From Armatimonadota bacterium (GTDB lineage Bacteria; Armatimonadota; Fimbriimonadia; Fimbriimonadales; Fimbriimonadaceae): 64,000 bases of DNA. This document shows positions 8,473 through 29,400 of this stretch, one piece after another; the first letter of the stretch is position 1, and every line of letters begins with the position of its first letter. The stretch covers positions 57,179 to 121,178 of the forward strand of contig JACRPN010000008.1 in NCBI GenBank assembly GCA_016223145.1, given 5' to 3'. A program made the translations under genes and the position numbers. The notes beneath the pieces were generated by a model. The model was given only the letters and a program-made list of their open reading frames with translations. It made no database searches and was not told the origin of the DNA.

Positions 8473-8898
8473 ATGAAACGACAGATTACTATTATCGTCC
8501 TTGGCGGGATTGCCGCCCTCTCGATCTATGCCTTCACTGCACCGTCACCCCAAGGCTGTGGCAATCACGGCGGCGCGATGCAACACGAGGAGCACCAAGC
8601 CCAGAAACCCTCGAAAGCAAAGATCGTCAAGGGCGTCCAGGTCGCAACGATCAAGGTGGATTCCGGCAAGTATTCCCCATCGTCGATCGCGGTCGTGAGG
8701 GACAAGCCGGTCGAGCTCACCTTCAAGTTGGGGCGCAAACCAGGATGCGCGAGCGAATTGGTCATCGAAGACCTCAAGTTCCGCGAGACGATCGACCCTA
8801 AGAAGGGGACCATTGTCAAGTTCACGCCAAGCAAGGAGGGCGCCATCAAGTTCGCTTGTGGCATGGGAATGCAGAGCGGCACGATCATCGTCCAGTGA
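8473..8898 (+). CDS. Exported cupredoxin-like metal-binding protein A
   Basis: This 141-residue protein starts at ATG 8473 and has an N-terminal signal or anchor (ITIIVLGGIAALSIYAF). A short Cys/His/Met stretch (GCGNHGGAM, HEEH) follows, then one cupredoxin-like domain with core motifs YSPSSIAV, CASELVIEDL and FACGMGMQSGTIIV. Classical blue-copper ligands (His, Cys, His, Met) are replaced here by a Cys in each of two loops plus Met. This suggests Cu(I) or soft-metal chelation over electron transfer. The same domain recurs in the proteins at 9736 and 23244 and at the end of the adaptor at 17435. Confidence 0.78.
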   Translation: MKRQITIIVLGGIAALSIYAFTAPSPQGCGNHGGAMQHEEHQAQKPSKAKIVKGVQVATIKVDSGKYSPSSIAVVRDKPVELTFKLGRKPGCASELVIEDLKFRETIDPKKGTIVKFTPSKEGAIKFACGMGMQSGTIIVQ

Positions 8899-9735: not shown

Positions 9736-10212
9736 GTGAAACGCGTCAACGCAACCTACATCGCCCTGCTATTTGTTGTCGGGCAGGTTCTTCCGCTTCT
9801 CTCGACGCCCGCGATCGCCCAGCACCCCGAGCAATGCTCCGGATGCGCAAACTGCGAAATGCAAACGGCACCGAGAGCGAAGAAGAGCGGCCAAGTGCAA
9901 CAGGCAACCATCGTCATCGAGGAGCGTCAATTCAACCCGGCTGATATCGTCGTCGAGCCAAACGTTCCTGTGGAACTCACTTTCAACCGGAATGGCTTCT
10001 GGGAGTGTTCGGACCAGGTTTTCATTCCTGACCTGCGCGTCCGCAAGTCCCTTGAGACTGGCCAGAAGGTCACTGTCAAATTCACGCCGACTAAGCTCGG
10101 TGTGATCCCCTTTACGTGCGGCACAGGCAGGCTCAAGGGGAAGATCCTTGTAGAGACTCCCGACGCCAACACCTTGACCAGAGATCTCTCATGCACTGGA
10201 GGATTGCAGTGA
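9736..10212 (+). CDS. Exported cupredoxin-like metal-binding protein B
   Basis: This 158-residue protein starts at GTG 9736 after an AAAGGAGGA site. A signal peptide ends near AIA-QHP. The mature N-terminus is HPEQCSGCANCEM, a CxxCxxC cluster. The cupredoxin-like domain follows (FNPADIVV, ECSDQVFIPDL, FTCGTGRLKGKILV). Compared with paralogues the last loop reads CGTGRL, lacking the Met residues of CGMGM or CPMKM, so its metal site may differ. A 20-residue tail follows the domain. The stop overlaps the GTG of the downstream lipoprotein gene. Confidence 0.76.
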   Translation: MKRVNATYIALLFVVGQVLPLLSTPAIAQHPEQCSGCANCEMQTAPRAKKSGQVQQATIVIEERQFNPADIVVEPNVPVELTFNRNGFWECSDQVFIPDLRVRKSLETGQKVTVKFTPTKLGVIPFTCGTGRLKGKILVETPDANTLTRDLSCTGGLQ

Positions 10213-13103: not shown

Positions 13104-14864
13104 CTACGGAGCGATCAGTAGCCATTCATTCCAGGACGTTTCCGCCGCAAAGCGCATCAGAGAGTAGTCCAAGCCCGTCGTGCCTGAATTGAACGTGGTG
13201 GCCGATGAAAAGTCGACCGAAACGCCGTGGCTGTTGGGCGAATTCGCGTTGTGGCCCTCCCAAACGACGGCGTTGGCGAGCGCCGAGCGCACGTTAGTGG
13301 CCGCCAATTGGACAGAGGGGATGCCGATCTGCTGATTGATCAGGTCGCAAACGTGGTCCAGATCGCGGTAGACCCGAGAGGCCGTGGGGCTGTAGCTTTG
13401 GGAGGTCGAGCGAATCGAGATGATCTGCTGACCAATGGTTGCGACGTTTGCCGAAAGCTGCGTTCCAAGGGCATCAGCCGCGGAGGCCAGAGCCGGCAGC
13501 TTGGCCGTGTCGATCACACTTTGCGTGATCTTGCGGCTCGCGTATGAAGGGACTGCCAGCATTCCGTCCACGAACGCCTTCGATAGGTTCTTGGTGGATT
13601 CCGAGTCACGGTCCCGAAACTCTCGAAAGATCAAGTCGTAAGGATAACCCTCTCCAGGAGGGCTCTCTTCGCTGCCGGCGACAAACTGCGCGTGATCCTG
13701 AATCTCATATGCGACCTCCAGCATCTGCATCAGGCTGGCATCCCAGGCGACAATGTCGAAGCGCGTGTCGCCGAGCGCCTGAGCGAGTTCCGATATCTGG
13801 ATCGAATTGCCCGTCTGATCGTCATAGCTGACGGCTCGGCTCGGCTCTTCAAGCCCCCTGCGCCATCCATTTCCATGGTTCCAGATCACAAGGCAGTACC
13901 GGTCGGCTGGGTAGTAGGTTTTCGCCCAATTGATGAAGCCCAGCATCGTCTCGGGCCGTCCCATATCGACGCCGGTTCCCATATCCTGAAGCAGTTCGCT
14001 GGCGATCGCGGTCGAGGTGTTGAACTTGACCAAATAGCGTCTAGTCCCGTCAAACGAGGACTGAGGGTAGATGTCCTTGGACTGCTTCCACTGAATGACG
14101 AAGCGCACCTGATCGTTATTGGCGACCTTCTCTATCTGGTTCACGTTGAGGTCGCTGAACGTGTAGAGATCATTGGCCGCGTTCAGATATACGATGACCG
14201 TCCACTTGGTGCGAGTGGCGGTGAACGGCGTCACGGTGAAGACGGCACTGCCATTGATCGCCTGAGGCACGTACGTTGCACGTACCGATCCTTGGCCCTC
14301 CGACTCTCCAAGCACTAGGCCGTTCTCGTTCACACTCGCAGTTCCGCCAAGCGTCGTCCAGGAGAGGCTGCCCAGTTCAGTGAAGACGGCCTGCGCCCCG
14401 GAGTTGTAAGGCGTCGCATAGAACTGCTTGCTGTGTTGCACTTCCAGGCTGATCTGTTGCGGATTGACGGTGAGGCTCGCGACGTCGAGGCCGACCGCCG
14501 TGCGGAAGCGGGACTGGAGGCCAACGTCGACCCAGGCGTCGAGTTCTCCCGTCTGCGTCCCGCCCAAATCCCGCTGGGAGAAAAGCTCCACGTGAAGATG
14601 AAACAGCCCTTCTCCAGTGGCGCTCAGCCCAGAGGATTGCAGCCCGTTCGTGTCTTGGTTCACGATTTTGGAGTCAACGAGGCGACCCGTGGAATCGAGT
14701 AGCTGCACACGCTGGGAAAGACCCGTCACGCCTCGGCCTCGTGACGACCAATCGGTTTCATAGGTCAAGCTCTTGCTTCCGCCGTTCCCACCCCCGCACG
14801 AGGATATTGCAGCGCAGAGCAGGACGATGGCCAGAAACCGAACCAAGGAATTGGAGGTGCACAT
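13104..14864 (-). CDS. Clostripain-like (C11) lipoprotein with catalytic Cys replaced by Ser
   Basis: The 586-residue product starts at ATG 14864, giving a lipobox (CAAISSC) near residue 23. An Ig-like domain covers about residues 110-195 (LTVNPQQISLEVQHSKQFYA). A C11-type caspase-fold domain follows. Its His motif WNHGNGW places His330, and the position where C11 enzymes have the nucleophile (DACLMQM) reads DASLMQM, with Ser377 encoded by AGC. The 47-residue His-to-nucleophile spacing matches active C11 proteases. It is therefore either a pseudoenzyme or an unusual serine variant. It is convergent with the Gly-rich gene and divergent from the Cys-rich gene at 15192. Confidence 0.82.
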   Translation of the reverse strand: MCTSNSLVRFLAIVLLCAAISSCGGGNGGSKSLTYETDWSSRGRGVTGLSQRVQLLDSTGRLVDSKIVNQDTNGLQSSGLSATGEGLFHLHVELFSQRDLGGTQTGELDAWVDVGLQSRFRTAVGLDVASLTVNPQQISLEVQHSKQFYATPYNSGAQAVFTELGSLSWTTLGGTASVNENGLVLGESEGQGSVRATYVPQAINGSAVFTVTPFTATRTKWTVIVYLNAANDLYTFSDLNVNQIEKVANNDQVRFVIQWKQSKDIYPQSSFDGTRRYLVKFNTSTAIASELLQDMGTGVDMGRPETMLGFINWAKTYYPADRYCLVIWNHGNGWRRGLEEPSRAVSYDDQTGNSIQISELAQALGDTRFDIVAWDASLMQMLEVAYEIQDHAQFVAGSEESPPGEGYPYDLIFREFRDRDSESTKNLSKAFVDGMLAVPSYASRKITQSVIDTAKLPALASAADALGTQLSANVATIGQQIISIRSTSQSYSPTASRVYRDLDHVCDLINQQIGIPSVQLAATNVRSALANAVVWEGHNANSPNSHGVSVDFSSATTFNSGTTGLDYSLMRFAAETSWNEWLLIAP

Positions 14865-15191
14865 GACAATTTCGGCTGATTGATCGGAATCATGAATTGT
14901 AGTCCATACAAGCGTCCTCGCGTCCGCCGGAGCATTAGCCGATACGGATGGCAGCTGCCGCGCCCCTTCATGCCCGACGGACCGAGGGCCCCAGGTACGC
15001 TGGGCAACAGCGTGAGGTGGCCGCATGGTGCGCGTTATCACACCAATACCGACGGCGAGGGAGACGCGGTCTTAGGTGAGGAAATATGACAAGGAACATA
15101 GACATCCCTTGTACCCAAGCCCATTATGATGCAAAGGACACAGAACCGGATGCCGGAACTAATGCGGCGTTCGGACAGTTAAAGTGAAACG
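14865..15191. promoter_or_regulatory. Divergent intergenic region
   Basis: These 327 bases separate the minus-strand C11-like gene from the plus-strand efflux operon, so promoters for both should be here. A minus-strand TACAAT-like box is near 14890-14900, and TATGAT near 15123 faces the plus strand, but neither has a convincing -35 partner. No gene is apparent. Confidence 0.35.
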
Positions 15192-15635
15192 TTGAAGTTA
15201 TTCGGCCGACTGCTAACGGCAATCATTCTGCTCGCCTCTCAGGTGAGCTTTTCGTTGGCAGTTTGTGTCTGTCCGCCTCTTCAGCAGGCCCCGCCGATCA
15301 AGCCCGCCTCCGTTTGCCCCATGTCAAAGAAGGCAAACTGTGGGTGCTGTCTTTCTGACGGCCCCGGCGGGCGTTCCGGACTTTCGGCTTTGGGCCACGA
15401 CGGCATGTCTTCACATGCCAAATGCCAGGTTGCGGCGAGGGACATGAGCAAAACTCCCAAGTCGGCGGCGGCGGTGCTCTCTGCGAGCACGACGGCCGTT
15501 CTGGCGCCAGCGCCGATTTTGCCGGCTGTCGAGATCAGGTCTGGCGATTATGCTCCGGCAACGCACCTCGTGGTGCATCGGATTCGCCCGCCCGATCCAG
15601 GGCTCAACGGGCTACGTGCGCCTCCTTCCCGCTAG
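15192..15635 (+). CDS. Small Cys-rich exported protein, metal-locus paralogue 2
   Basis: A 147-residue protein starts at TTG 15192 with a signal peptide (LLTAIILLASQVSFSLA). The mature N-terminus has CVCPP and, further on, CPMSKKANCGCC. A His/Met-containing middle (GHDGMSSHAKC) and a Pro-rich tail ending LNGLRAPPSR follow. It repeats the plan of the protein at 6764, including the TTG-AAG start. It lies 103 bases before the Spy-like gene and is probably the first gene of the efflux operon. A copper-binding or sensing role is inferred. Confidence 0.6.
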   Translation: MKLFGRLLTAIILLASQVSFSLAVCVCPPLQQAPPIKPASVCPMSKKANCGCCLSDGPGGRSGLSALGHDGMSSHAKCQVAARDMSKTPKSAAAVLSASTTAVLAPAPILPAVEIRSGDYAPATHLVVHRIRPPDPGLNGLRAPPSR

Positions 15636-15738: not shown

Positions 15739-16170
15739 TTGAGCACCCGAAAACCCCGTCCGATCGGACTCGGCACCTTGGCCATGCTGGCAGTGATCGT
15801 CTTGATCGCCGCCTATGGGTTCAGCCAAAGATCCGCGGCAGCCCTGCCAAGCACGAGTCACCTGCCTTCGCCCCAGCGGCCGCTCTCCAAGCCCGAGCCC
15901 TCCCAGCTTTTGTCCAACAGGGCCCTTCGGCTCTCGGAGGCTCAGCGAACCAAGATTGTCGCGATCGACGCCGAATGGCAGCGCTCTAAAGCTGGTCTGG
16001 TAACCGCCATGTCGTCGTTTCAGCCGAAGCAGGGGCAGGTTCAGGAGATCAGCAAGAGCTTGAGAGGGTATTCACAGCTTTCACGCGAGTACGATTCGAC
16101 TCGAGCGCACTACTGGTCCGAGGCGCTCACCGTACTCACACCTTCCCAGCGAAAGGAGGTGCAGCAGTGA
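15739..16170 (+). CDS. Spy/CpxP/ZraP-like periplasmic metal-stress protein
   Basis: This 143-residue protein from TTG 15739 has one N-terminal transmembrane segment (LAMLAVIVLIAAYGF), then a long helical domain. Two LTxxQ-like motifs, LSEAQRTKI and LTPSQRKEV, match the signature of the CpxP/Spy and heavy-metal-resistance (CnrX/ZraP-like) helical hairpin family. It would sit membrane-tethered in the periplasm as a chaperone or metal sensor. Its stop overlaps the GTG of the TolC gene, so translation is coupled. The ribosome site is weak. Confidence 0.6.
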   Translation: MSTRKPRPIGLGTLAMLAVIVLIAAYGFSQRSAAALPSTSHLPSPQRPLSKPEPSQLLSNRALRLSEAQRTKIVAIDAEWQRSKAGLVTAMSSFQPKQGQVQEISKSLRGYSQLSREYDSTRAHYWSEALTVLTPSQRKEVQQ

Positions 16171-17438
16171 GACGACCCCTTATCTTCGCGGCGCTCGTCT
16201 TGACGACTGCTGCCTTTGGTCAACAGCATCTGTCCTTGAGCGAATCGCTCCGATTGGCCCACGAAAAGAGCCCGGTGCTAAGGGCCTCGCAGGCGGACGC
16301 AAACGCTGCCTCGGCTGGAGCCCGGGCTTCTCGGGCGCGCACCCGGCCACAGCTCTCCGCAAACGGCTTCGCAGCCGACGGGAAACAGAGCAGCATTCTC
16401 AGTTCTTCGCCCATGGTCGAGCCACCGGCCTTTATGGCGACGGCTCCAGGGACCTTCTTCGACGGGAACCTCTCGCTAATGTTTCCTTTGATCGCCTCGC
16501 GGTTATCTGCGATGGCTTCCGCTGCCGGTTGGCAGGCCAGGGCGGCAGGAGGGGAGTTCCTTGAGGCTCGGGCAGATCTCGATCTTCGGGTCACCGAAGC
16601 CTATTATCGTGTGCTTCTGGCTCGGCAGATGATTGCAGTGGCCGAGACCAGAAAGGCGGCCGCTACGGAGCTCGTGAAGAACACGCGGGCGCTGTTCGAA
16701 TCCGGCAAAGGCATCGAGGCCGCCGTGCAACGTTCCGAAGCCGAACTTTCATCTGCCCAGCGTGGCCTCACTAGCGCCAAGAACGAAGAGGCAAAGGCGA
16801 TCCTCGACCTAAAGGAGACGATCGGCTTGGACCTCGGAACGGATGTCGTGGTGGACGGTGAGGCATCACCTTTGGTGCCATCGAGTCTGAACGACGCCAT
16901 AGCAGCGGGCAAGCAGAGACGGGGCATGTTGTTGGCCGCACGCGCGAGAGCTTCGGCTGCCCAATCTGACGTGCGAGCCGCAGCCTCCCAACGACTCCCC
17001 CAGCTCTACGGAGTTGCCATGGGAGACACCACGAATCGTCGGGACATGGGTGGCGGCACCATCGGCTTGACGCTTAGCTTTCCGGTTTTCGATAGCGGGA
17101 GGATTTCCGCCGAGGTCGCTCAGGCTCGATCCATGCAAGAGAAAGCCGATGCGCAAGTTCGTCAGGCTGAACTCACGGTCGAGAAAGAGATTCGACAAGC
17201 TTCGCTCGACCTCGAAACCGCTCGCGCAAATGCAGATTCGGCCGAGAGGTCGCTGGTTGGCGCGCAAGCATCCTATGACGTCATCGCGTTACGCGTCGCT
17301 TCAGGCAAGAGCATCCTTGTGGAACAGCTCGATTCGTTGCAGACCTTGACGCAGGCAAAAGCCGATCTGGCACAAGCCCGATTTGACCTGGACCTCGCGG
17401 CAGCCAGGCTCACCCGCGCCGCGGGAGGAAACAAGTGA
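16167..17438 (+). CDS. TolC-family outer-membrane efflux protein
   Basis: This 423-residue protein, starting at GTG 16167 inside the previous stop, has a signal peptide and the internally duplicated helical pattern of the OEP family. Examples are SLSESLRLAHEKSPVL near residue 25 and a matching second-half heptad region (VEKEIRQASLDLETARANAD). It would form the trimeric outer-membrane channel of a tripartite pump with the adaptor and RND protein that follow. Stop and next start overlap (GTGA at 17435), so the pump components are translationally coupled. Confidence 0.88.
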   Translation: MRRPLIFAALVLTTAAFGQQHLSLSESLRLAHEKSPVLRASQADANAASAGARASRARTRPQLSANGFAADGKQSSILSSSPMVEPPAFMATAPGTFFDGNLSLMFPLIASRLSAMASAAGWQARAAGGEFLEARADLDLRVTEAYYRVLLARQMIAVAETRKAAATELVKNTRALFESGKGIEAAVQRSEAELSSAQRGLTSAKNEEAKAILDLKETIGLDLGTDVVVDGEASPLVPSSLNDAIAAGKQRRGMLLAARARASAAQSDVRAAASQRLPQLYGVAMGDTTNRRDMGGGTIGLTLSFPVFDSGRISAEVAQARSMQEKADAQVRQAELTVEKEIRQASLDLETARANADSAERSLVGAQASYDVIALRVASGKSILVEQLDSLQTLTQAKADLAQARFDLDLAAARLTRAAGGNK

Positions 17439-19786
17439 AAAGACTACTTACCCTTTTGTTGCTGGCGCTCGTCGCCATTACATACGCCGTTCAAGGAATG
17501 GCCGGCCCGTATCAGATCGACCTCCGCACGGACCCGGCGATCGTGCCTGTTGGCAAGGCGAAGTTGATCATCAAGGTCACGGCCAACGGCAAACCCGTAT
17601 CCGGTGCCACAGTTAAGGCGATGGCTCAGATGCCCGGAATGAACATGGGTGAACGCGAGGAAACCGCTTCACCAGCTTCTGAGCCCGGTACCTACATAGC
17701 TCCTGCGTCTTTCGCCATGGCCGGAGCCTACCAAGCGACGATCACGATTTCAGGTTCAGCGGGAACCGGTAAGGCCGTGCTGTCTCTCCAAACGGGTGAA
17801 AGCACCGAGGGCGGAGGAGGCGGGTTTCCGCTGGGCACCATCGTCCTCTGGGGTGGGCTGATTGTTATCGCAATCATTGTGGTAAGGCAGATTCGTCGAA
17901 CCGGCCAGCAAGTGAATATCGCCAGCATCTTCAATCGCCAGGTGCTTCTGTCATTGCTTCTGCTCGGTGCGGCACTCGCCGTCGCAGTCTGGTTTGTCAA
18001 CAGCAAGCGCCGAGAAGGTGCGATGACGCCAATGGAAGCTCAAGTGATGGAGATGAACACCCCGGCTCCTGAAGGATCCCTTCCTGTACGGCTTGGGAAA
18101 GTAGAGAGCAAGCCGTTTCAGGCGACCGTCACTTACTCAGGGCAAGCCGTCGGGTTCATCGAGCAGGATGTCGTTCCCCGCGTCACCGGCGCCATCGTTT
18201 GGATGCCGCTTTACGTTGGCGATCGTGTTGTGAAAGGACAAGTACTGGCGCGCCTCGACACGTCTCAACTCGATCCGATGGTCAGCGAGAAGCTTGCCGG
18301 TGTCAGCACGGCCCGGCAAGGCGTGGGCGTTGCCTCGATGGAATATCAGCAAGCCATGAATATGGTGACGCAGGCTCGCGCTGAAGTCAGCATGGCAGAA
18401 GGCGAACAAAGCGAGGCCGAGGCCATGTTGGTCGCGGCGCAACAAGGACGGGGTAGCGCCGAGTCCGAGATCGAGTCTGCGAGGGCTGACATTCAGGCGA
18501 TGCAGGCCGATCTTGTTGCTGCTGAAGCCGACCGAACCTACCAACAGCAAGAACTAGGACGAATGCAAAGCCTCTTTGAGAGGGGAGCGATCTCGAAGGA
18601 TGAACTGCAGCGTGCCCAAGCGGAAGCGAAGAAGGCAGATGCTATGGTCTCCAAGGCTCGCGAAAACGTCAATCGCGCTCGCGCCCAAGCCAACTCAGCT
18701 CAAGCAATGCTAAGGAAAACCGATGCTGAGATCGCGGCGGCAAAACGTAAGGTTCAGCAGGCTGAAGCCAACTTGAGGGCCAAGCAAGCTAGTGTGAAGA
18801 CCGCGGAAGCGGGAGCGAAGGCTTCTAAAGGGAAGATTGGCCAATCCGAAGCGGGGGTTGCGGAAGCGGCTGCTGGCCTTAGGGGAGCGACAACCCAGAG
18901 GGGTTACAGCGAACTTCGATCCGAAGTCGATGGCGTTGTGACTCAGCGCGTCATCAGCCCAGGAACGATCGTCAACCCGGGTCAAACGGTGATGAGGGTA
19001 TCTCAGATCAAGCCGATCCGACTTCAGGCCAACGTACCAGAAGAGGACCTTGCCCGAATTCAATTGGGAGCTAATGTAAAGGTCACCCGACGTGGAAAGG
19101 GCGAGAAGCCGATAGCGGCGAAAGTAACGAGCATCTCGCCTTCACTTGACCCCAGTTCTAGAACCGGGATAGTCGAGGCGCTGTTCGCGAACGAAGACGG
19201 GAGGTTCTCGCCCGGTCAGTACCTGACGATGGAGATTTCTATCGGATCGGGGCAGACGGCTCTCGTGATTCCATCCTCTGCCGTCCTGTCGGAGACTCAG
19301 GAAACCGGACGACAGCACTACGTGTGGGTTGCTGAGCCTATGTCGGGGAGCGAACTCATGGTCTCGCGCAAGGATGTGCAGATCGGCGCCCGTTCGGGAG
19401 ACCTCGTGGAAGTTGCATCCGGGCTGAAAGCCGGCGACCAGGTTGTTCTCGCTCCTCCACAGGGACTGGCCGCGGGCAATCATGTGACGAACGTCAGCGA
19501 GCCGTCCGTCGCGATTGGTGACCAGCCGCAGGTCATCGAGATCACGGAAGCAGGCTATAGCCCCGCCTCCATAGCGGTTCCAGCGGACAAGCCATTCAAG
19601 GTGATCTTCATCAGAAAAGCAGCCGAGAGTTGCGGCACGCAAGTCATCTTCCCCGATCTCGGCATCAAAAGGGACCTGCCACTCAATCAGCCTGTGACGA
19701 TTGAAATCCCGCCCCAGCCTGGCGGCAAATCCTTAAGCTTCACTTGCCCGATGAACATGCTGAAAGGCAAGGCGGTGGTCAAGTGA
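17435..19786 (+). CDS. Periplasmic adaptor (RND MFP) fused to YtkA-like and cupredoxin domains
   Basis: This 783-residue protein is far longer than usual adaptors (about 350-450). In order: signal peptide; a YtkA-like beta domain (about 25-115) with Met motif MPGMNMGE; a Gly linker; two transmembrane segments around 130-190; the HlyD/CusB-type barrel-sandwich half (VVPRVTGAIVWMPLYVGDRVVKG); a very long coiled coil of about 200 residues rich in Ala, Gln and Glu; the second sandwich half, beta-barrel and membrane-proximal domain; and a C-terminal cupredoxin-like domain (YSPASIAV, SCGTQVIFPDL, FTCPMNMLKG). Metal capture at both ends of the adaptor is the likely meaning. It sits between tolC-like and RND genes with overlapping codons. 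Confidence 0.85.
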   Translation: MKRLLTLLLLALVAITYAVQGMAGPYQIDLRTDPAIVPVGKAKLIIKVTANGKPVSGATVKAMAQMPGMNMGEREETASPASEPGTYIAPASFAMAGAYQATITISGSAGTGKAVLSLQTGESTEGGGGGFPLGTIVLWGGLIVIAIIVVRQIRRTGQQVNIASIFNRQVLLSLLLLGAALAVAVWFVNSKRREGAMTPMEAQVMEMNTPAPEGSLPVRLGKVESKPFQATVTYSGQAVGFIEQDVVPRVTGAIVWMPLYVGDRVVKGQVLARLDTSQLDPMVSEKLAGVSTARQGVGVASMEYQQAMNMVTQARAEVSMAEGEQSEAEAMLVAAQQGRGSAESEIESARADIQAMQADLVAAEADRTYQQQELGRMQSLFERGAISKDELQRAQAEAKKADAMVSKARENVNRARAQANSAQAMLRKTDAEIAAAKRKVQQAEANLRAKQASVKTAEAGAKASKGKIGQSEAGVAEAAAGLRGATTQRGYSELRSEVDGVVTQRVISPGTIVNPGQTVMRVSQIKPIRLQANVPEEDLARIQLGANVKVTRRGKGEKPIAAKVTSISPSLDPSSRTGIVEALFANEDGRFSPGQYLTMEISIGSGQTALVIPSSAVLSETQETGRQHYVWVAEPMSGSELMVSRKDVQIGARSGDLVEVASGLKAGDQVVLAPPQGLAAGNHVTNVSEPSVAIGDQPQVIEITEAGYSPASIAVPADKPFKVIFIRKAAESCGTQVIFPDLGIKRDLPLNQPVTIEIPPQPGGKSLSFTCPMNMLKGKAVVK

Positions 19787-22700
19787 AGGAAAAAGTACAA
19801 GGCGCGCTCAATCGCATTCCCCAGTGGTCGATCGAGCACCCCTATGCCGTCATTGCGTTCTTCGTCGCGATGCTTGCTCTCGCCTGGATATCCATTGGGC
19901 GGATGCCGCGTCGCTTTGCTCCCTATGTGGAGAGCCCCATGATTGGGGTTGTCACGATGATGCCGGGCCTGTCGGCGCAAGAAATGGAGCTCTATATATC
20001 CAAGCCCATTGAAGAACAGCTCGTCAACGTAAAGGGAGTTCGCTACATTCGGAGCACGTCGCAAGACGGTTTCTCTATCGTAACGCTTGAGTTCCCGTAC
20101 CAAACGAACATGCAGCGGGCTATCACGGATATCCAATCGCTGATGAACGTGGTGCAGTCCAACCTGCCGGCGACCGGCGCCAACCTGAAGCCGTCGTGGG
20201 TCGTTCCGATTGACCCGCTCAACCTTCCCATCCTCACGCTGTCCTTACACGGCGACGCGTCGCAAGGGTGGACGATGGAGAAGGTCCGGCAGTTTGCGGA
20301 CAACACCGCCATCAATCGCCTCAAGACAGTGCAAGACGTATATTCCGTGGTGCCGTTTGGCGGTTTTCGCAGACAGCTTCAAGTCATTGTGGACCGGGAC
20401 AAACTTGCAGCCTACGGACTTTCAATTCTCGACGTGCGAAACGCAATCGACCGCTCGAATGTGAGCACCTCTGGCGGCACACTAACCGACGCGGAACGCG
20501 AGGGGATCGTCAGGGTCCAGACGCGCGCGAAGGGACCGCAAGATGTCCTCGATTATCCAATCGCAACGGTTACAGGAGGCTCTACAAGCACGGGTCCGCC
20601 GCCAGCAAGCGGAGGAGGCGGAATGGGTATGGGCGGCGGAGCTGCATCGGCACCTTCTCGAAGCGCCGGTGCTCTTGAGAGCGGTACGCCACGCGTAATC
20701 TACATTCGAGACGTTGCCCGGGTCGAGGATTCGCATTGGGAGCAACGTAGCGGATACCACTACCTTGACAACGTAGCCGGCGAAGTGCATCCGTCCATAT
20801 CCGTCAGCGTGATCCAGAATCCAGGGGCGAGCTCAGCTCTCATTGTGCCCGCAGTAATGAAGGTTGTGAAGCAACTGGAATCGGAGAACCCGGGACTTCA
20901 CTTCAATGTGGCTTATGACAACGCGCACTTTGTCGACATTCTCTTTGAGAACGTATGGCATGAGTTGGCGATCGCAGTCCTATTAACCGGACTCGCGCTT
21001 CTCTTCTTCCTTGGTGAATGGCGCGGGACGCTAATTGCGATGGTCACGCTCCCGACGAGCCTTGCCATGGCTGTGCTGCTCATGGTGCCATTTGGAATGA
21101 CTTTTAACAGCGGCACGCTCATAGGTCTGCTGTTGAGCATTGGCCGGCTCGTCGACGACTCAATCATCGACATACACGCTGTAGAGAGACATCTCCGGAT
21201 GGGTAAAGACGCCAAAGCGGCAACGGTTGACGGTATCGCTGAGGTCCGTGTGGCGGTCATCGCTTCAACGCTGATGATCGTGCTCGCATTGCTGCCCCTG
21301 ATCTTTTCTGGCGGCATCGTTGGACTGATGTTTGTCGAACTTGTCTGGCCCCTCATCTTTGGGCTGCTCGCCTCCATGTTCGTTTCGTTCACGCTAACGG
21401 CGCTGCTCGCGTCGAAGCTACTGCGGCCAGAACAAGTGCGAGACGAAGAGCGTCGAAAGCCGGGCCTGAATCTCTTGTATCTGATCCTCGACCCTTGTCA
21501 GCGATTTCTTGTTCGAATGGAACATGGCTATGCGAGGGCGATCACTTGGCTCTTAAAGCACAGGTTCGCGAACTTCACTCGGGTACTCGCAACGCTCATC
21601 CTTGGGTTTAGCTTCTACTACTTTCTCGGCAGCGAAATGATGCCTTTGGCCGATACTGGCCAAGCCTCTGCATTGCTGGAGATGCAGCCTGGAACCTCAT
21701 ATCTCGGTACGCAGAACGCCGTAAAGCAAGTCGAGTCAATCATTCGAAAGCACCCGGAGATAGAAAAGGCAAGCATCGAGATGGGTGCCGAGACGATGTT
21801 TGAAACGTGGTCTCCATTCTTCACCGGCTATCAAATGCCTTCGGTGAGTGGCGCGGCCATGATGCTGACGTTTAGCGACAAGGACTTGCGCAAGCGCAGC
21901 ATCTTTGAAGTCATCGACAGCATACAGAAAGAAGCCCTTCAGACCGTGCCGGGAATCAGGCGGTTTCAGATAAAGGAAATGGGCTCGGACGTCATGGCGA
22001 CCTCCGCGGCACCAATCCACGTTTACGTCTACGGCCCCGACCTAAATGAGCTAGACCGCCTGGGGTCACAGGTTTTGGGCGTAGGGGAGAAAATGCCTGA
22101 GCTCTTCCAGCCAGGAAAAACCTGGTCGATGGGAGTGCCTGACTATCGGGTCAATGTAGATCTGCAGCGAGCGCAAGAAGTTGGCCTCTCACCAGACCAG
22201 ATTGCGCAACAGGCCTACTACGCTACGCGAGGCGGCTTGACCAGCGAGTTCTACAGGATTCCGAATCTCAGGCAGAACACGATCCTGGTGCGCTATGACA
22301 AGGAAGAGCGTAAAACACCCGAAGACCTGGAAAACATGTATCTCACGACGCCGGGCGGAAAGCAGATCCTGCTCAAATCTGTCGCCGGCGTCGAAGAGAC
22401 ATCAGCGCCAACAGCCATCGAACATGACGGCCTGCGCCGGGTTGTTGGCGTCACGGGCTACTACCGCATTGGCAACCTGCCGAGCATGGACGTGGTCATG
22501 AACCTTGTCTCCAATGCCTACGGCGGAAACAAGAAGCTCGGCATCGGGCCCGTCAACTTCCCGCCTGGATACGGCATGGAAATGCGCGGTGACATGACGC
22601 AGATGATGGACAGCTTTAGGCGGCTTATGTCCGGGCTTGGCCTGTCGCTCATCATGATGTACTTGGTTCTGGTCATCCAGTTCCGAGGTTTCCTGCAGCC

Positions 22701-23247
22701 TTTCCAGATGATTGCATCGTTGCCTTTGGAGCTTGCCGGCGTCTTCGTAGCGCTATTCCTTGCTCACCAGTCCTTCTCGACCGTTTCCATTCTCGGAATT
22801 ATCGTGCTCACGGGCATGGACATCACCACGGCTGTCCTCATGATCGACCTGATCATGAAATACCGTGACGCAGGGGTTCCGCGAGAGGAGGCCATTCGAA
22901 GAGCATGCCCAGATCGATTGCGGCCGATCCTCATGACCGCAGGCATCTCACTCGTTGTCATGCTGCCGGTGGCGTTTGCGCCAAAGACCGGCCTCGACGC
23001 TTACCAACCGCTCGCCATGGCGGTTGTGGGAGGACTGATCTCGGGAACGGTCCTCTCACTCTTCGACATCCCGATCATGCACACGTACGTGGACGATTTC
23101 GTCCGCTGGCTCAACAGGACATTCTTGCGACGTGAGTGGAACTGGCCCGTAACCGATCCAGATTCGGACTACGCCATTCCGAGCAACCCACCTCAAGAAG
23201 ATGCGCCTGATCATCCAAGCGACCATAACACAGGAGAAAATCAATGA
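19783..23247 (+). CDS. RND-family efflux transporter
   Basis: The 1154-residue inner-membrane pump starts at GTG 19783, overlapping the adaptor stop. It has the RND layout of TM1, a large periplasmic loop, TM2-6, a second loop and TM8-12. TM4 reads SIGRLVDDSIIDIHAVERH, with the paired Asp of drug-type (HAE) pumps; metal-type HME pumps usually show DGA there. A Gly/Met-rich insert (GGGGMGMGGGAA) of about 30 residues interrupts the first periplasmic region. Cupredoxin partners argue for copper or another soft metal, so motif and context disagree on substrate. Confidence 0.9.
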   Translation: MKEKVQGALNRIPQWSIEHPYAVIAFFVAMLALAWISIGRMPRRFAPYVESPMIGVVTMMPGLSAQEMELYISKPIEEQLVNVKGVRYIRSTSQDGFSIVTLEFPYQTNMQRAITDIQSLMNVVQSNLPATGANLKPSWVVPIDPLNLPILTLSLHGDASQGWTMEKVRQFADNTAINRLKTVQDVYSVVPFGGFRRQLQVIVDRDKLAAYGLSILDVRNAIDRSNVSTSGGTLTDAEREGIVRVQTRAKGPQDVLDYPIATVTGGSTSTGPPPASGGGGMGMGGGAASAPSRSAGALESGTPRVIYIRDVARVEDSHWEQRSGYHYLDNVAGEVHPSISVSVIQNPGASSALIVPAVMKVVKQLESENPGLHFNVAYDNAHFVDILFENVWHELAIAVLLTGLALLFFLGEWRGTLIAMVTLPTSLAMAVLLMVPFGMTFNSGTLIGLLLSIGRLVDDSIIDIHAVERHLRMGKDAKAATVDGIAEVRVAVIASTLMIVLALLPLIFSGGIVGLMFVELVWPLIFGLLASMFVSFTLTALLASKLLRPEQVRDEERRKPGLNLLYLILDPCQRFLVRMEHGYARAITWLLKHRFANFTRVLATLILGFSFYYFLGSEMMPLADTGQASALLEMQPGTSYLGTQNAVKQVESIIRKHPEIEKASIEMGAETMFETWSPFFTGYQMPSVSGAAMMLTFSDKDLRKRSIFEVIDSIQKEALQTVPGIRRFQIKEMGSDVMATSAAPIHVYVYGPDLNELDRLGSQVLGVGEKMPELFQPGKTWSMGVPDYRVNVDLQRAQEVGLSPDQIAQQAYYATRGGLTSEFYRIPNLRQNTILVRYDKEERKTPEDLENMYLTTPGGKQILLKSVAGVEETSAPTAIEHDGLRRVVGVTGYYRIGNLPSMDVVMNLVSNAYGGNKKLGIGPVNFPPGYGMEMRGDMTQMMDSFRRLMSGLGLSLIMMYLVLVIQFRGFLQPFQMIASLPLELAGVFVALFLAHQSFSTVSILGIIVLTGMDITTAVLMIDLIMKYRDAGVPREEAIRRACPDRLRPILMTAGISLVVMLPVAFAPKTGLDAYQPLAMAVVGGLISGTVLSLFDIPIMHTYVDDFVRWLNRTFLRREWNWPVTDPDSDYAIPSNPPQEDAPDHPSDHNTGENQ

Positions 23248-23642
23248 TCAATACTCGAGTCCTCATCGCCCTAGCCGTCGGAGCGGCGACGCTGTCCATT
23301 ACGTCCGCACAAATGTGCGGCGGATGCGGCGGCAGCTCCGCGCCTCAGGGCGCGCCCGTTCAGGTCCAGACCGACAAGAAAGGCGTGCAGAAGGCCACCA
23401 TCGTCGTCGACGGCGGCTTCAGCCCCTCGTCCCTTACGGTCAAGGCCGGCCAGCCGGTCGAGCTGACCTTTGACACCAAGAAGAGAGGCTGCGCCTCGTC
23501 CGTGAACTTCGAAGGGCTCAATCTCAAGAAGGACCTGACCGACGGCAAGAAGACCGTCGTGTCGTTCACCCCCAAGAAAGCGGGCACTTACACATTCGCC
23601 TGCCCCATGAAGATGATCAAGGGAACCCTAATCGTCAAGTAG
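23244..23642 (+). CDS. Exported cupredoxin-like metal-binding protein C
   Basis: This 132-residue protein overlaps the RND stop (ATGA). The signal peptide ends near TSA-QM; the mature chain begins with CGGCGG. One cupredoxin-like domain follows: FSPSSLTV, CASSVNFEGLNLKKDL, and FACPMKMIKGTLIV. It is the closest relative of the domain fused to the adaptor's C-terminus. Coupling to the pump suggests it delivers metal to the adaptor or RND entry site from the periplasm. Ligands are probably the two Cys and the Met residues. Confidence 0.82.
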   Translation: MINTRVLIALAVGAATLSITSAQMCGGCGGSSAPQGAPVQVQTDKKGVQKATIVVDGGFSPSSLTVKAGQPVELTFDTKKRGCASSVNFEGLNLKKDLTDGKKTVVSFTPKKAGTYTFACPMKMIKGTLIVK

Positions 23643-23654
23643 TGGCAGCGTTCC

Positions 23655-23686
23655 GAGGTTCCCCCTTTACCCCAGAGGGGGACCTC
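23655..23686 (+). terminator. Probable terminator of the efflux operon
   Basis: GAGGTTCCCCCT (23655-23666) pairs with AGGGGGACCTC (23676-23686) with one bulged T. A pyrimidine-rich run (ACCCTTCCTTCTT) follows. It lies 13 bases after the last cupredoxin stop codon. Confidence 0.6.
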
Positions 23687-23731
23687 ACCCTTCCTTCTTG
23701 TGATTCGGAGGTGAATCAGGAGACCCAGGCA

Positions 23732-24310
23732 ATGAAGCCCAGTTCCAGAAGATCGGCCCTCTTTAGTCTCCTAGTCCTCGTTGCGCTCGCTGCGTTCTTC
23801 GCCGCGACCTTTCGAACCGTTCGGGTCGTCGGGCCGTCCATGGAGCCCCAACATCCCGATGGAAAGCGGTTCCTCATGACCTCCGACTATTGGCTCGTCG
23901 GGCCCATAAGCAAAGGCGACGTCGTCGTGATCGATGACCCGGAGGGTCCGTCAGGGGAGCTCGTCAAGCGGGTCTATGCGATGCCCGGAGGCGAAGTGCC
24001 CTCAAGCCTCTCGCCGATCGGCATGAAGCAGACCGTCCCCAAGGGCCAGATCTACGTCCTTGGCGACAACCGCGACGAATCCACCGACAGCCGGGACTTC
24101 GGGACCGTGCCCCTGAGTAGCGTCCGCGGCAAATGCGTGCACCTTTGGAGTTGGGATATGAGCATTCCCTTCGTCATTGTCTTTGCCGGCATCGCCCTGA
24201 TCGCAGCCGACTGGCTCCTCCTGCGCCGCCTTTCAAAGCGCTACAGTCAAGGCGATGCAGAAGAATGCGCTCACGACTTTGGTCGAATCTGTGCTGAACT
24301 GTTAGAATAG
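23732..24310 (+). CDS. Signal peptidase I-like (S26) protein
   Basis: This 192-residue membrane protein starts at ATG 23732. An N-terminal TM helix leads to catalytic Ser36 (VVGPSMEP) and general base Lys79 (GELVKRVYA). The box E motif GDNRDESTDSRDFG is intact, and a second TM helix lies near the C-terminus. It should cleave signal peptides at the periplasmic face. Its size and C-terminal TM differ from housekeeping LepB, so it may be an accessory peptidase for this cluster's many exported proteins. It lies 53 bases before the ECF sigma gene. Confidence 0.83.
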   Translation: MKPSSRRSALFSLLVLVALAAFFAATFRTVRVVGPSMEPQHPDGKRFLMTSDYWLVGPISKGDVVVIDDPEGPSGELVKRVYAMPGGEVPSSLSPIGMKQTVPKGQIYVLGDNRDESTDSRDFGTVPLSSVRGKCVHLWSWDMSIPFVIVFAGIALIAADWLLLRRLSKRYSQGDAEECAHDFGRICAELLE

Positions 24311-24362
24311 GCTCGTGGAGTCAGATCGAAAGACCCAACAGGCTGACCTAGGAGGACCAATT

Positions 24363-25094
24363 TTGAGCGAGTTCAGTTGGTCTGAGCAGCAATTCGATGA
24401 CGCCTGTCGTCGAGTCAGGCCCACGCTGATTCGTTGGGTGCGGCGGCGCGTTCGATGTGATGACCATTGCGATGAGGTTGTCCAGAGAGTCTTCTACGCT
24501 CTTGCCAAGAATCGAGACAACTTCGGACCGGCATCCATGGAAGCCTACGCCATGAGAGCCTCCGCGAATGCGGTCAAGAACTACTACGAGCGCGACCTTC
24601 CTCGGTGGTCGAGCCGGATTTCGCTTGAAAACTGGGCAGAAGACTATGGGGTGCAACGCCAGAGCGGGGAGCCGTGTCCTGATCAAGGAATTGGGATGCG
24701 AGACCTTGCCGTGAAGATGTTTGACGAAATGAAGACGTGCTGCTCCCCGATCGAGCGAAGCATCGCCATGCTCTTCTTTCAGGGCGCATCGTTCGATGAG
24801 ATTTCCAAGGACATCCATATGAATGCGGTGACGGTTCGCAGCCACTTCAAGCGGGCTCGTGAGAAGCTGCTTCAGCATCTTTGGCTCAATTCGCCGGACC
24901 TGCTTGGCGGCCAGGACCAGGTTCTGGCTGTGCTCGATACGCTTGTCTTGAGAGGCGAGCTATCAGACCATGAGGCGGAAGCGGTTCGTGAGAGAAAAGG
25001 CGGTGCCTTGCGCCTGCGTGCAGCACTACTTAAGGTTGCCACGCATTTGACAGCCCTGCTGTTCGCCTTGCCTTTGATGGGGGGTAGGAGTTGA
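24363..25094 (+). CDS. ECF-type sigma factor
   Basis: A 243-residue product is predicted from TTG 24363. This start was chosen over GTG 24315 because a perfect AGGAGG lies 7 bases upstream of the TTG. Region 2 is visible (FDDACRRVRPTLIRWVRRRV, then DEVVQRVFYALAKN). Region 4 helix-turn-helix reads ERSIAMLFFQGASFDEISK, then TVRSHFKRAREKL. About 60 extra C-terminal residues end in a hydrophobic segment (LTALLFALPLMGG), unusual for an ECF factor. Its stop overlaps the TTG of the anti-sigma-like gene. Confidence 0.8.
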   Translation: MSEFSWSEQQFDDACRRVRPTLIRWVRRRVRCDDHCDEVVQRVFYALAKNRDNFGPASMEAYAMRASANAVKNYYERDLPRWSSRISLENWAEDYGVQRQSGEPCPDQGIGMRDLAVKMFDEMKTCCSPIERSIAMLFFQGASFDEISKDIHMNAVTVRSHFKRAREKLLQHLWLNSPDLLGGQDQVLAVLDTLVLRGELSDHEAEAVRERKGGALRLRAALLKVATHLTALLFALPLMGGRS

Positions 25095-26407
25095 AAGATG
25101 CCGAAAGAACCGCCATCGAGCAGAAGTGGGGCGAAGCGTTGAACGAGTTGAATCCCACCGGTCCGTGCTTGACAGCAAGGGAGCTCATTGAAGTTGCTGA
25201 GCGGGGAGCTCGCGCGCGGCACTATGATCGTCACATCGAACACCTCGCGCTCTGTAGCGTCTGCCGTGAAGCCGTCCGAGAGATGACGGAGGCCGACCTT
25301 GCCAGCAGGCAGGCAAGATCATCTTTTCCCGATTCCATAGCGAGGTGGTTCACCTTTCCAAGGCTTGCCTTTGCGATCCCGGCCGCCATGGCCGTTGTCG
25401 CATGTGCATTCTTGCTTGCTCGATCAGGATGGTTTGGCGGATCGACTGGTCCTGAGCCCATAGCCTCGCACGACAAGGCAAACGGCGGAGAAAACCAATC
25501 TGATCCAAACGTCAACCCGAGGGGTGTCAATGGGGCGAAGGGTTCGCGCCTGGTTCAGGACGGTCCGGAACAGCAAACCGACCCGGGCAGTATTGTAGCG
25601 CCCGGTAAGGAAGGGTCCTCTGTCAGATCCACGCTAGTGGCAAGCAATTGGACCATTAGTGGCGGGAGGCACATTTACAACGGGATCGACCTTCCCGACG
25701 ACGCACAGCTCTTTGCAAGAGCACTTACCGAAGGGCCAACCGTCGACCGCGGCATTTCGGGAGGCGCACTGCGTGAGCGACCCAATATAAAAGCGGGCTC
25801 CACGGAACCGAAAGTGGTTGCCAACTGGCTCGACGATCCGGTCGAAGGCAATTCGGCGCTCGTAGAGACTAACCCCACTTTCAGACTTGCCTGGGACGAC
25901 GCGGAGAGCAGGACGGTGCGAATCCTTCAGGTCGAGGCGAACGGTAGCAGAACGGAGATCTCTGGAGCGTTGGCCTTTACGGGAGGCGACAAGCCTCGAT
26001 CCCAGTTAGCGGCAGCGCTTCGCGGCGGGTCTTCACTGAAGCGCGGCCACGACTATGTTCTGGAGGTCAGAGCCAAGTCCGATGAGCTTATCGGTGGAAC
26101 CAGGGTCGACTCCGAGAAGACAACCGCCTGGCGCTTTCGTGTATTGAGTGAAAACGAATTGAGCCAATACCGATGGGCCAAGGCCAATGAGGCGAAGCTG
26201 CCTGTCGTCGCCGCGATCGCATACAGCCGCCTGGGCCAATATGGAGACGCCGAGCGGGTTTGCCGTGTCCTGGACAAGCAGTCCTTGAATGGCAAGAGCG
26301 GCGGAAACAGCCAGACTCAACCGATTGAGAGAAGCTCTACATGGCTGCGATGGCGAAAGGCTATTCGCGGCCAATACGAACGGCGGCTCTCCAAACCCGA
26401 GGAATAG
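25091..26407 (+). CDS. Zinc-finger anti-sigma-like membrane protein
   Basis: This 438-residue protein is coupled to the sigma gene by a TTGA overlap. The N-terminal 70 residues contain HIEHLALCSVCREAV, a His-x-x-x-Cys-x-x-Cys arrangement like the ZAS anti-sigma domain. A single TM segment follows (FAIPAAMAVVACAFLLA). The extracytoplasmic part is about 320 residues, beta-rich, with no recognised family. The layout fits a membrane anti-sigma factor sensing the envelope and restraining the upstream ECF factor. It precedes the TPR-CHAT gene by 24 bases. Confidence 0.7.
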   Translation: MKDAERTAIEQKWGEALNELNPTGPCLTARELIEVAERGARARHYDRHIEHLALCSVCREAVREMTEADLASRQARSSFPDSIARWFTFPRLAFAIPAAMAVVACAFLLARSGWFGGSTGPEPIASHDKANGGENQSDPNVNPRGVNGAKGSRLVQDGPEQQTDPGSIVAPGKEGSSVRSTLVASNWTISGGRHIYNGIDLPDDAQLFARALTEGPTVDRGISGGALRERPNIKAGSTEPKVVANWLDDPVEGNSALVETNPTFRLAWDDAESRTVRILQVEANGSRTEISGALAFTGGDKPRSQLAAALRGGSSLKRGHDYVLEVRAKSDELIGGTRVDSEKTTAWRFRVLSENELSQYRWAKANEAKLPVVAAIAYSRLGQYGDAERVCRVLDKQSLNGKSGGNSQTQPIERSSTWLRWRKAIRGQYERRLSKPEE

Positions 26408-26431
26408 GCTCGTTTCAGGAGGGAGCCTATA

Positions 26432-29400
26432 ATGTTGGGAAGCGGCTTGGTGCCGCTTGGGGGAGCCCACATTATGGTTTTGTGCGTGAGAGCCGGATTG
26501 GCTCTTTTCCTGGCATTGGCCCAGCAGGGCACGTCGGGGCAACAAGATGTCCAACTACCCGAGGGCGTCAGTTCAGCCCAATTCTCGTGGCTAAGAGAGC
26601 TGGCCCGTGCCGGGGACCAAGCCAAAACGGATCGGCTGATTGAGGCGCACCCAGATTGGCGCACCCTCGCCTTCTTCGAGCGCGTCTGCAAAGCTTTCGA
26701 CACCAGTGACCCCGGAACGGCGGTCAATTGGCTGCCCGCCACGAATGGTCTGCTGACTTTGGCAGAGCACGTCGTCTATCCAGAGCCTTCCCGACACGTG
26801 TTTCCAACCGACCGCCACTACTCCCTCGCCTATGCTCACTTCAAGGTCGGCGGTATTGCCGCCAGCGCAAGGGACCTCGGGCCTGCCGAACTTCATTACA
26901 GAACTGCAATCTCCCTTTTTCGCGGCAGAGCCGCCGCAGGTCTCCAAGAATCGCTCCGTGATGCAGGCTCATCAGCAAACGAGCTCTTTGGGATACCGGC
27001 AGAGCAGCTCGCGGGAATGTGCCAGCTAAACCTCGGAACTGTCTTTCGCGACTCAGGCGAGCTTCCAAAGGCCCTTCAGGCGTTCGAGGAAGCCCTCGCA
27101 ACTTTGACTGCCTGCAACGACTTGACTCACGCTGCGATGGCGCACGTGGACCTTAGCGACGTGCTGATGAACCTGGGCAACACTAGCCGAGCAATATCTG
27201 AACTTGAAGCCGCAAGAGCCCAGTGTGAAGCCCTCAAGGATGATTCGGGGGTTGCGCAAGCAGAGCTAAACCTTGGAAACCTTTATATTAGGACGAGCAA
27301 GTATGAATTGGCGCTAGCCCAGTTCAAGCTGGCACACAAGGTGTTTGAGGCGTCTGGAGACTTCCTCAATCTTGCCTCGGCCATTTCGGGCGAAGGCGCC
27401 GCCTATCTGAACTTGGGTCGATTCCAAGATGCATGCGCTAGCTTTGAACGAGCTCGCGCAATTAGCGAGAAGCAGAACGATCTCTTCGGTGTCGCACGGG
27501 CGACCATGAACCTAGGCGCCGCCAAGTACTCGATGCAGAGGCCGCTTGAAGCGATCGTGTATTTCGAATCCGCGCGGCAAACAGCTCTGGCAGCGCCGGA
27601 CGAGATCACAGCAGCAAGCTGTCTGAGCAATCTGGGCACCTGCTATCAGGAGTTGGGGATGACAGCCGAGGCGATACCGTGTCTTGAGGAATCGCTCAAA
27701 TATCTCCGGTCGTCGGGGATGATCCAAGAGCTTGCCTCAACCCAGACCTCTATCGGACTTGCCCTTGGCCTGGAAGGTCGGCGCCCCCAAGCGATTCAAG
27801 TGCACTTGCAGGCACTGAAGACCTTTGGTGAACTCAAGGCGCAGAAAGAAGCTGGAGTTTGCCACCTGAACATCGCGCAGCTGTACTTCGACCAAGGCAG
27901 CTTGGCTAAAGCTCAGGAGCATCTGGCCGCTGCGCGCACTGCCCTGTCAGCAACGGAGGCAGCGCCAGACATTGCGCGAGTCGATTTGCTTGCCGGGTTG
28001 CTTGCCGCCAACGCTGATCTGAATGGCGCATTGGCGCAAGTTGGCAGCGCAGTTCGTGTCTTCGATGAACTCGGAATGCCCCTTGACTTTCTCAAAGCCT
28101 CGATGCATCTTGGCGACCTTTATGCTCGGGCTGGTGATCGCAAAGGGAGTTTGCAGTCATACGACAGCGCTCTTGACAAACTAAACGAGCTTCAAACCGC
28201 GCAGTCTGATCCTCTGTCCTCTACGCTCAGCGACGTCGGCTCCTCATTGCTCGCAAAGTACATCGAATCATCCAAGAGGGATGTGAGCCCGGAGGCCGCC
28301 TTTGCCGCGTGCCAGCGCACCAAGGGTGGGCTGCTCAGAGCATCGCTCTTGCAAGAGTCAAGTCTCGAAGTGGCAGTCGGCGCTCAAGATGCAAAGCGCG
28401 TCCGAGAACTCCGCAGCGAGTGCGAGAGACTAGAGAAGGAGCTTCAGAAGAAGCCGTCCGATGCCTCATTGACCGAAGCGAGGGGAAGGGCATTCGCGGC
28501 AATGAACGCTTTTGATCTCTATCTTAGGACCAAATATCCCAGCTTTCGAGCCCTATACTCGAGCCCTGCGACGCTCAGTGAGATTTGCAGAGCGCTCGGC
28601 CCGAATGATGCTTCCGTCGAATACATCTGCGGCGATGAGCGAATCTATGCGTTCGTGGCGCGGATGTTGAATGGCATTCCCATAGTCACACGATTCGATT
28701 TGGGACCTTCGAGTACAGCCAAGACCGCTACGGCCGAATTCTCACTGCAGCTGAAGCGCGCAACCCCGAACGCACAAGCGTTGCGACTTCTCGGGAAGCG
28801 GCTCTACGCACGGCTTGTTCAGCCGCTCCAAGGCTCGCTTAAGGGCATCACTGGTCTGGTCATTTGCCCAGACCGGTACTTGCATGAACTGCCGTTTGGA
28901 GCCCTGGTCGGTCCCGATGGCAGATATGTCATCGAAGCCAATGCTATTGCAGTCGCGCCCTCTGCATCGTCATGGCAAGCCTGCAGGGTCGTTGCTGAAG
29001 CTCGAAGAAGGGAGCGCCCTGGGGCCCCGCTCGTGGTCGGGATTTCCAGGTTCGGCCGGTCGCCTACCTCAGCCCTTCCAAGGCTGCCGCGTTCCATTCG
29101 TTCAGGCGGCAGTCTTGACGCGCTTCCTGCAGCTGCTCAGGAAGCAAAGTCAGTGGCCCAGATTCTCGGGTGTCAGCCAATACTAGAATCCAACGCCACT
29201 ACCTCAGTTGTGACGAAGCGCCTCGAATCTGCGGGGATTCTCCATTTCGCAACTCACGCGTGTGGAAACAGCTTGGCGCCACTCATGGGCTACCTTGTTC
29301 TGGCGCCAGAGACTAAAGACGAGCTTGGCTATCTTTACGCACGGGACATCTATCGAACTCGCACCAAAGCACGACTAGCGGTCCTCTCAGCCTGCAGTAC

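Follow-up and report, generated by a model that had tools for sequence, protein, structure and literature searches.

An RND periplasmic adaptor of Armatimonadota with putative copper-chaperone domains fused at both ends and a long coiled coil extended by whole heptads

Bacteria usually make copper chaperones as proteins apart from the adaptors of their efflux pumps. The closest described case of a fusion is SilB of Cupriavidus metallidurans, an adaptor of the resistance-nodulation-division (RND) type with a CusF-like Cu/Ag chaperone domain at its C-terminus, the chaperone being present also as a separate protein (PMC4446572). Copper chaperones of two other folds are known from CupA of Streptococcus pneumoniae, shared by the N-terminal domain of CopA (4f2e, 4f2f), and from CrdA of Helicobacter pylori, which works alongside an RND pump (CrdAB-CzcBA; 9ll4, PMC9182242, PMC12319023). 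As for coiled coils, the hairpin of Aquifex aeolicus EmrA, with 127 angstroms and 11 heptads per helix, has been called exceptionally long (PMC4158417). Here, we analyzed a stretch of 64,000 nucleotides from an Armatimonadota bacterium of the Fimbriimonadaceae (assembly GCA_016223145.1, contig JACRPN010000008.1, positions 57,179 to 121,178), hereafter the window, and in it the gene of an RND periplasmic adaptor of 783 residues (17435..19786, + strand, GTG start). Like SilB, this adaptor carries a C-terminal chaperone-like domain, but of the CupA cupredoxin type, and unlike SilB it has a second such domain N-terminal to a transmembrane (TM) hairpin, a very long coiled coil and a pump outside the CusA model.

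The frame is open without internal stop and encodes, in order, a signal peptide, a YtkA/CrdA-like domain, a two-TM hairpin, a Met linker, an HlyD core with its own hairpin and a CupA-like cupredoxin. All three Pfam matches exceeded the curated cut-offs: YtkA (residues 24-103, E 2.3e-14, 54.2 bits against 25.9), HlyD_D23 (384-596) and Cupredoxin_1 (687-782, E 8.4e-14, 51.9 bits against 27). The protein passes the RND adaptor model TIGR01730 (204.9 bits, cut-off 94.9) and fails the CusB model (42 bits, cut-off 390). An AlphaFold model built on nine orthologs (mean predicted local distance difference test score, pLDDT, of 80) presents a beta domain at residues 21-119, TM helices at 133-156 and 168-190, two antiparallel helices at 281-382 and 388-489, and a beta domain at 699-782. 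In the structure search, only single-domain rows were counted as evidence; the large root-mean-square deviations (rmsd) of the whole-adaptor rows arise because hairpin lengths differ. Taken together, these results bear out the architecture that an earlier sequence-only reading had proposed, namely a protein almost double a typical RND adaptor (397 residues in Escherichia coli AcrA, 407 in CusB), an N-terminal beta domain with a Met motif, two TM segments distinct from the signal peptide, a hairpin region of about 200 residues (215 measured between the lipoyl halves) and a C-terminal cupredoxin domain.

The cupredoxin domain (residues 689-783, 19499..19783, + strand as for all features below unless stated) aligned with CupA (2mry/4f2e) at E 3.5e-15 and also with the metal-binding domain of CopA (4f2f). 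Its predicted fold superposed on CupA 4f2e with a Z score of 15.4 and an rmsd of 1.6 angstroms over 93 residues, 4f2f being listed alongside. The ligands of CupA are C74, C111, M113 and M115, and CupA can facilitate copper reduction (PMC5646241). Their counterparts by alignment are Cys733 (19631..19633) and the Cys771, Met773 and Met775 of a CPMNM motif (residues 771-775, 19745..19759), all four invariant in 9 aligned orthologs. The adaptor domain and the two pneumococcal domains share the fold and these four Cu(I) ligand positions, whereas the settings differ: a membrane-anchored chaperone or a P-type ATPase domain in a monoderm bacterium, the tail of an RND adaptor here. A CusF (OB-fold) domain at the adaptor C-terminus gave no Pfam match.

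At the other end of the protein, a signal peptide (residues 1-23, 17435..17503) is recognized from hydropathy and from the ortholog alignment, in which the AG at 23-24, the probable cleavage site, is invariant. The YtkA/CrdA-like periplasmic domain follows (residues 24-120, 17504..17794), and its predicted fold superposed on silver-bound CrdA of H. pylori (9ll4; Z 12.9, rmsd 2.2 angstroms over 100 residues). It contains the sequence MAQMPGMNMGE (residues 63-73; MPGMNMGE, residues 66-73, at 17630..17653), with M66, P67, G68, M69, M71, G72 and E73 invariant in the aligned orthologs. In comparison with the CrdA motif, MMXEMPGMXXMXEM (PMC9182242), the MPGM core and a later Met and Glu are present and the outer residues differ; CrdA is a separate periplasmic protein in H. 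pylori, whereas its counterpart is fused to the adaptor here. The retained CupA ligand motif and the CrdA-like predicted fold support the earlier suggestion that copper capture may have been built into this adaptor as whole domains. The hydropathy plot peaks near residues 132-150 and 170-188, in agreement with the AlphaFold TM helices (helix 1, residues 133-156, 17831..17902; helix 2, residues 168-190, 17936..18004), and an Arg-rich loop suggests that the first runs from periplasm to cytoplasm and the second back. TM2 is followed, ahead of the adaptor core, by a conserved Met linker, RREGAMTPMEAQVMEMNTPAPEG (residues 192-214, 18008..18076), in which M197, M205 and M207 are invariant; as it sits where CusB has its metal-binding N-terminal Met site, it is by analogy a putative metal site.

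Since an assembly artefact could have joined two genes, relatives were examined for this, as the sequence-only reading had advised. Eight further genera from this family have the single full-length frame, at identities of 46-64%, and so does an independent metagenome-assembled contig named uncultured Armatimonadetes bacterium: 17435-19786 is one real, intact gene. A phylum-wide profile search recovered further members of the adaptor family, and 58 non-redundant members were classified with local hidden Markov models (HMMs). Among them, 26 carry YtkA and cupredoxin, 23 carry HMBD without YtkA, 5 carry YtkA only, 3 combine YtkA with HMBD and 1 is a fragment with cupredoxin only, the YtkA counts being lower bounds as one of the 23 (G213; L080/L111) has a divergent YtkA by Pfam. 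The YtkA and cupredoxin architecture is thereby found in about 26 members from four taxonomic families of Armatimonadota. In sister adaptors, HMBD metal modules take the place of the cupredoxin. Both main types occur in the genome of the window, this adaptor being one and an HMBD-bearing paralog on contig 4, with a separate cupredoxin gene, the other. A tree built on the core that all members share implies at least four changes of the C-terminal module and at least three of YtkA; the metal module is therefore exchangeable within the family. In related adaptors (L079, L080, L081 and L082), up to four HMBD heavy-metal modules were seen within or after the membrane-proximal domain.

We then compared the hairpin with those of other adaptors by means of anchor HMMs, which replaced regular-expression and helix-propensity measures that failed controls or were noisy. 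Against the 215 residues found here, the same method gave 75 for AcrA, 121 for EmrA and 52 for CusB. Each of the two helices (residues 281-382, 18275..18580, pLDDT about 90; residues 388-489, 18596..18901) counts 102 residues, which at 1.5 angstroms per residue corresponds to an arm of about 150 angstroms. The tip, RMQSLFERGAISKDE (residues 376-390, 18560..18604), a motif of the TolC-docking type by alignment with invariant R376, L380 and S387, is the exact centre of the hairpin between the two lipoyl halves. Across the adaptor family we observed arms of 86, 93, 100, 107, 128, 149, 170 and 184 residues, that is hairpins of about 130 to about 280 angstroms at the same rise. All 58 classified members fit this series, both arms are equal wherever the tip was located, and the eight lengths leave the same remainder modulo 7, a remainder shared by AcrA (30). 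The arms of this family lengthen symmetrically by whole heptads. Chemoreceptors follow a similar symmetric heptad rule. A model of one member with 170-residue arms (L078) showed helices at 304-382, 391-477, 483-566 and 578-655, hence two arms of some 173 residues, each interrupted by a break of low confidence. Aquifex EmrA shares an exceptionally long two-helix hairpin, but its arm is shorter (84 residues in the N-terminal helix), and it serves a major facilitator superfamily pump and has no membrane-proximal domain, whereas the present protein is an RND adaptor with relatives reaching 184 residues per arm.

To see the arm in its genomic context, adaptors from outside the family were measured in the same genomes with the same anchor HMMs. 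Their hairpins span 190-238 residues in the genome of the window, 330-392 in G042 (family member 355) and 380-440 in G213 (family member 383). Over 15 genomes, the family hairpin and the mean of the other adaptors were strongly correlated (Spearman 0.90, p 4e-6; Pearson 0.97), also within the ten short-arm genomes alone (rho 0.69, p 0.03), and differences between genomes accounted for 0.85 of the variance in the 65 other adaptors, a value reached in 0 of 5000 shuffles. Because the hairpins of the other adaptors of this genome are equally long, coiled-coil length is a trait of the genome and not of the copper adaptor. Long arms are confined neither to one adaptor subfamily (f6 and f27 belong to one, f30 and f8/f9 to the other) nor to one taxonomic family. 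The length of TamB, an unrelated envelope-spanning protein, points the same way: about 1531 residues in the family of the window and 1993, 2177 and 2237 in three long-arm families, all taken as stop-to-stop frames and so slightly too long. Over 16 families, TamB and arm length were correlated (Pearson 0.89, 2 of 20000 shuffles; Spearman 0.76). In Deinococcus, a long SlpA coiled coil has been tied to a thick periplasm (PMC9388160). A deep periplasm is the leading candidate for the cause of the long arms, and a likely one.

The adaptor gene belongs to an operon in which 4-bp overlaps link five genes in turn. An LTXXQ-motif (Spy/CpxP-like) periplasmic protein (15739..16170, match below the Pfam cut-off) is followed by a TolC-type outer membrane factor of 423 residues (16167..17438, Pfam), the adaptor, an RND permease of 1154 residues whose GTG overlaps the adaptor stop codon (19783..23247), and a separate secreted CupA-like cupredoxin of 132 residues whose Cys and CxMxM ligands match those of the adaptor domain (23244..23642). 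Upstream lies the conserved first gene of the cluster, for a small secreted Cys-rich protein of 147 residues with a C-terminal LRAPP motif and no Pfam match (15192..15635). Relatives, too, have the adaptor gene together with those of an RND permease and a TolC-type protein, and the order of the operon was found again, whole or largely, in those with sufficient flanking sequence. Copper genes accompany it there: in L028, the gene directly after that of the RND encodes a P1B ATPase bearing the Cu-type motifs CPC, YN and MxxSS, a Cu-type P1B ATPase adjoins the operon in L034, and in L040 a Cu ATPase bears a CupA-like cupredoxin as its N-terminal domain.

The RND permease keeps the Asp pair of TM4 in alignment with E. 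coli CusA and AcrB. We also noted that its TM4, VDDSIIDIHAVERH, has an extra Asp and a His in an unusual proton-relay region, and that its TM10, GMDITTAVLMID, is without a counterpart of Lys940 (AcrB) or Glu939 (CusA). Both peculiarities are present in all ten RND orthologs and are near-identical in two paralogs.

We propose that this protein is the adaptor of a tripartite efflux pump for Cu(I), and probably also Ag(I), with chaperones fused to it and with a lineage-wide arm that most likely fits the periplasm; we give this reading a probability of about 0.74. From the gene order, the domains, the conserved ligands and the predicted folds, we infer metal binding, the direction of transfer and efflux. 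The CrdA/YtkA-type Met domain and the CupA-type Cys/Met cupredoxin would act as copper chaperones at the two ends of an adaptor anchored in the inner membrane by its TM hairpin, both terminal domains lying in the periplasm. Together with the secreted cupredoxin, they would capture periplasmic copper, and the two Cys of the cupredoxin could reduce Cu(II) too, as reported for CupA. Cys/Met exchange would hand the metal to the Met-rich RND pump, perhaps via the Met linker after TM2, and copper would exit through the adaptor barrel and then TolC.

Several results weigh against this proposal. With a predicted template modelling score of 0.35, the adaptor model renders its single domains well but not their mutual arrangement. 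The RND permease reached 531 bits against the multidrug (HAE-1) model but 311 against that of CusA/CzcA, and it has an equivalent of neither AcrB K940 nor CusA E939. A CusA Met triad in register was not borne out by alignment with E. coli CusA: L631, F697 and D736 occupy the columns of Met573, Met623 and Met672, with conserved Met 2-4 residues off. These features would suit a multidrug pump of the HAE-1 type, in which the metal domains of the adaptor act as a sensor or for stability and copper regulates without being transported. We consider this improbable, as 32 Met positions are invariant in 10 RND orthologs and mostly kept in the paralog with the HMBD adaptor, another metal-binding module occupies the corresponding position in sister adaptors, and the clusters of relatives come with copper genes. 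Moreover, all RND scores lie below the curated cut-offs (701 for CusA/CzcA), so that the permease fits neither described group. We conclude that it forms a separate group with copper-type companions, whose substrate we infer; the comparison with CusB made in the sequence-only reading calls for correction, the partner being not CusA-type by model or by Met register. Copper supply instead of detoxification was also considered, the adaptor domains then loading periplasmic or outer-membrane cuproenzymes as YtkA/CtaK do in Bacillus CuA assembly. YtkA-type domains of B. subtilis do support CuA-site assembly and both fused domains are chaperone-like, but this explanation is made unlikely by an operon that comprises a complete set for RND-TolC export and beside which no oxidase gene was seen, and by the Cu-type P1B ATPase of the L028 cluster. 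That neighbouring genes were fused by an error of sequencing or assembly has next to no probability, given the same domain order in single frames of about 26 members from different genomes and nothing found in its favour.

The efflux proposal leaves a choice on the meaning of the arm. Hairpin length in Armatimonadota could act genome-wide as a ruler for the depth of the periplasm, with unrelated adaptors, and TamB as well, lengthened together in whole-heptad steps that leave the two arms equal, an idea that we hold tentatively and rate slightly short of even. On the other side, the arm may not be tuned to depth and may reflect ancestry, a common TolC-type partner or peptidoglycan thickness, which we find somewhat doubtful yet of appreciable weight. 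The genomes compared are related and not independent points, the TamB trend lost significance once the four long families were set aside (rho 0.47, p 0.12), its rank correlation at genome level was not significant, and a comparison of SLH/OmpM coiled coils yielded too few clear proteins. Individual families also depart from the trend: f11 combines short hairpins with long TamB, and f27, a long-arm family, has a TamB of 1731 residues, a poor fit. Outside the 58-member set, hairpins of 188 in f11 members (arms 87/86) and of 200 in a G257 member lie one residue off the series. What favours depth is that arms became long in either subfamily and in more than one taxonomic family, accompanied every time by unrelated adaptors of the genome that are long as well. 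Among the papers available for searching, none gave a measured width of the Fimbriimonas periplasm. The earlier suggestion that the coiled coil implies an unusual periplasm depth thus stands in part: covariation with other adaptors and, by family, with TamB supports it indirectly, whereas the length is not peculiar to this adaptor.

Other genes around the operon were noted. Two further secreted CupA-like cupredoxins are encoded a few kb upstream (8260-8898 and 9736-10212), the latter having lost the CxMxM methionines (CGTGR), and a second small secreted Cys-rich protein with a conserved C-terminal RAPP motif, like that at 15192-15635, lies at 6764-7192. A signal peptidase gene (23642-24310) is found directly 3' of the cupredoxin gene; in the paralogous cluster on contig 4, a signal peptidase 40% identical to it also follows the cupredoxin (L037, 15739-16320), and none was seen in this position in the clusters of relatives. 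Farther upstream, a P1B ATPase (2833-4932) has a last TM motif, MGASLIVVGNGLR, that looks Zn/Cd-type and not Cu-type, and the adjoining protein (1433-2599) reads as an FTR1-like permease. The window also contains, in a row at 24315-29677, genes for an extracytoplasmic function-type sigma factor, for a protein that is probably an anti-sigma factor and for a large one that reads as tetratricopeptide repeats with a CHAT protease domain, and at 13104-15041 (- strand) a clostripain-family (C11) peptidase with a Big_2 domain.

Beyond Armatimonadota, the cluster of the cyanobacterial plasmid pSTA7437.01 from Stanieria has an RND protein 43% identical over its length, with Met-rich stretches in common. 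Its adaptor differs, with 612 residues, YtkA at the C-terminus and no cupredoxin; a separate FixH/YtkA gene lies between adaptor and pump, and a DUF411 gene nearby. No Synechocystis record was among the RND matches at the threshold used, and we claim no link to the Synechocystis CopBAC pump. In a full-text literature search that covered few subscription papers, no cupredoxin-RND adaptor fusion was described, a result that speaks weakly for novelty.

Overall, the chaperone-fused RND adaptor is a variant of the SilB kind, and the rule of arm length is the result likeliest to surprise a specialist. Two chaperones on an RND adaptor would fix the route of copper delivery in one polypeptide, so that the hand-over from chaperone to adaptor to pump can be tested by point mutants in a single protein. 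Arm lengths offer a route, from sequence alone, to how envelope-spanning machines match the depth of the periplasm, a question that in E. coli has reportedly been approached by altering the length of Lpp. They also predict in which Armatimonadota the periplasm would be unusually deep, and, if the ruler holds, periplasm depth would become readable from sequence.

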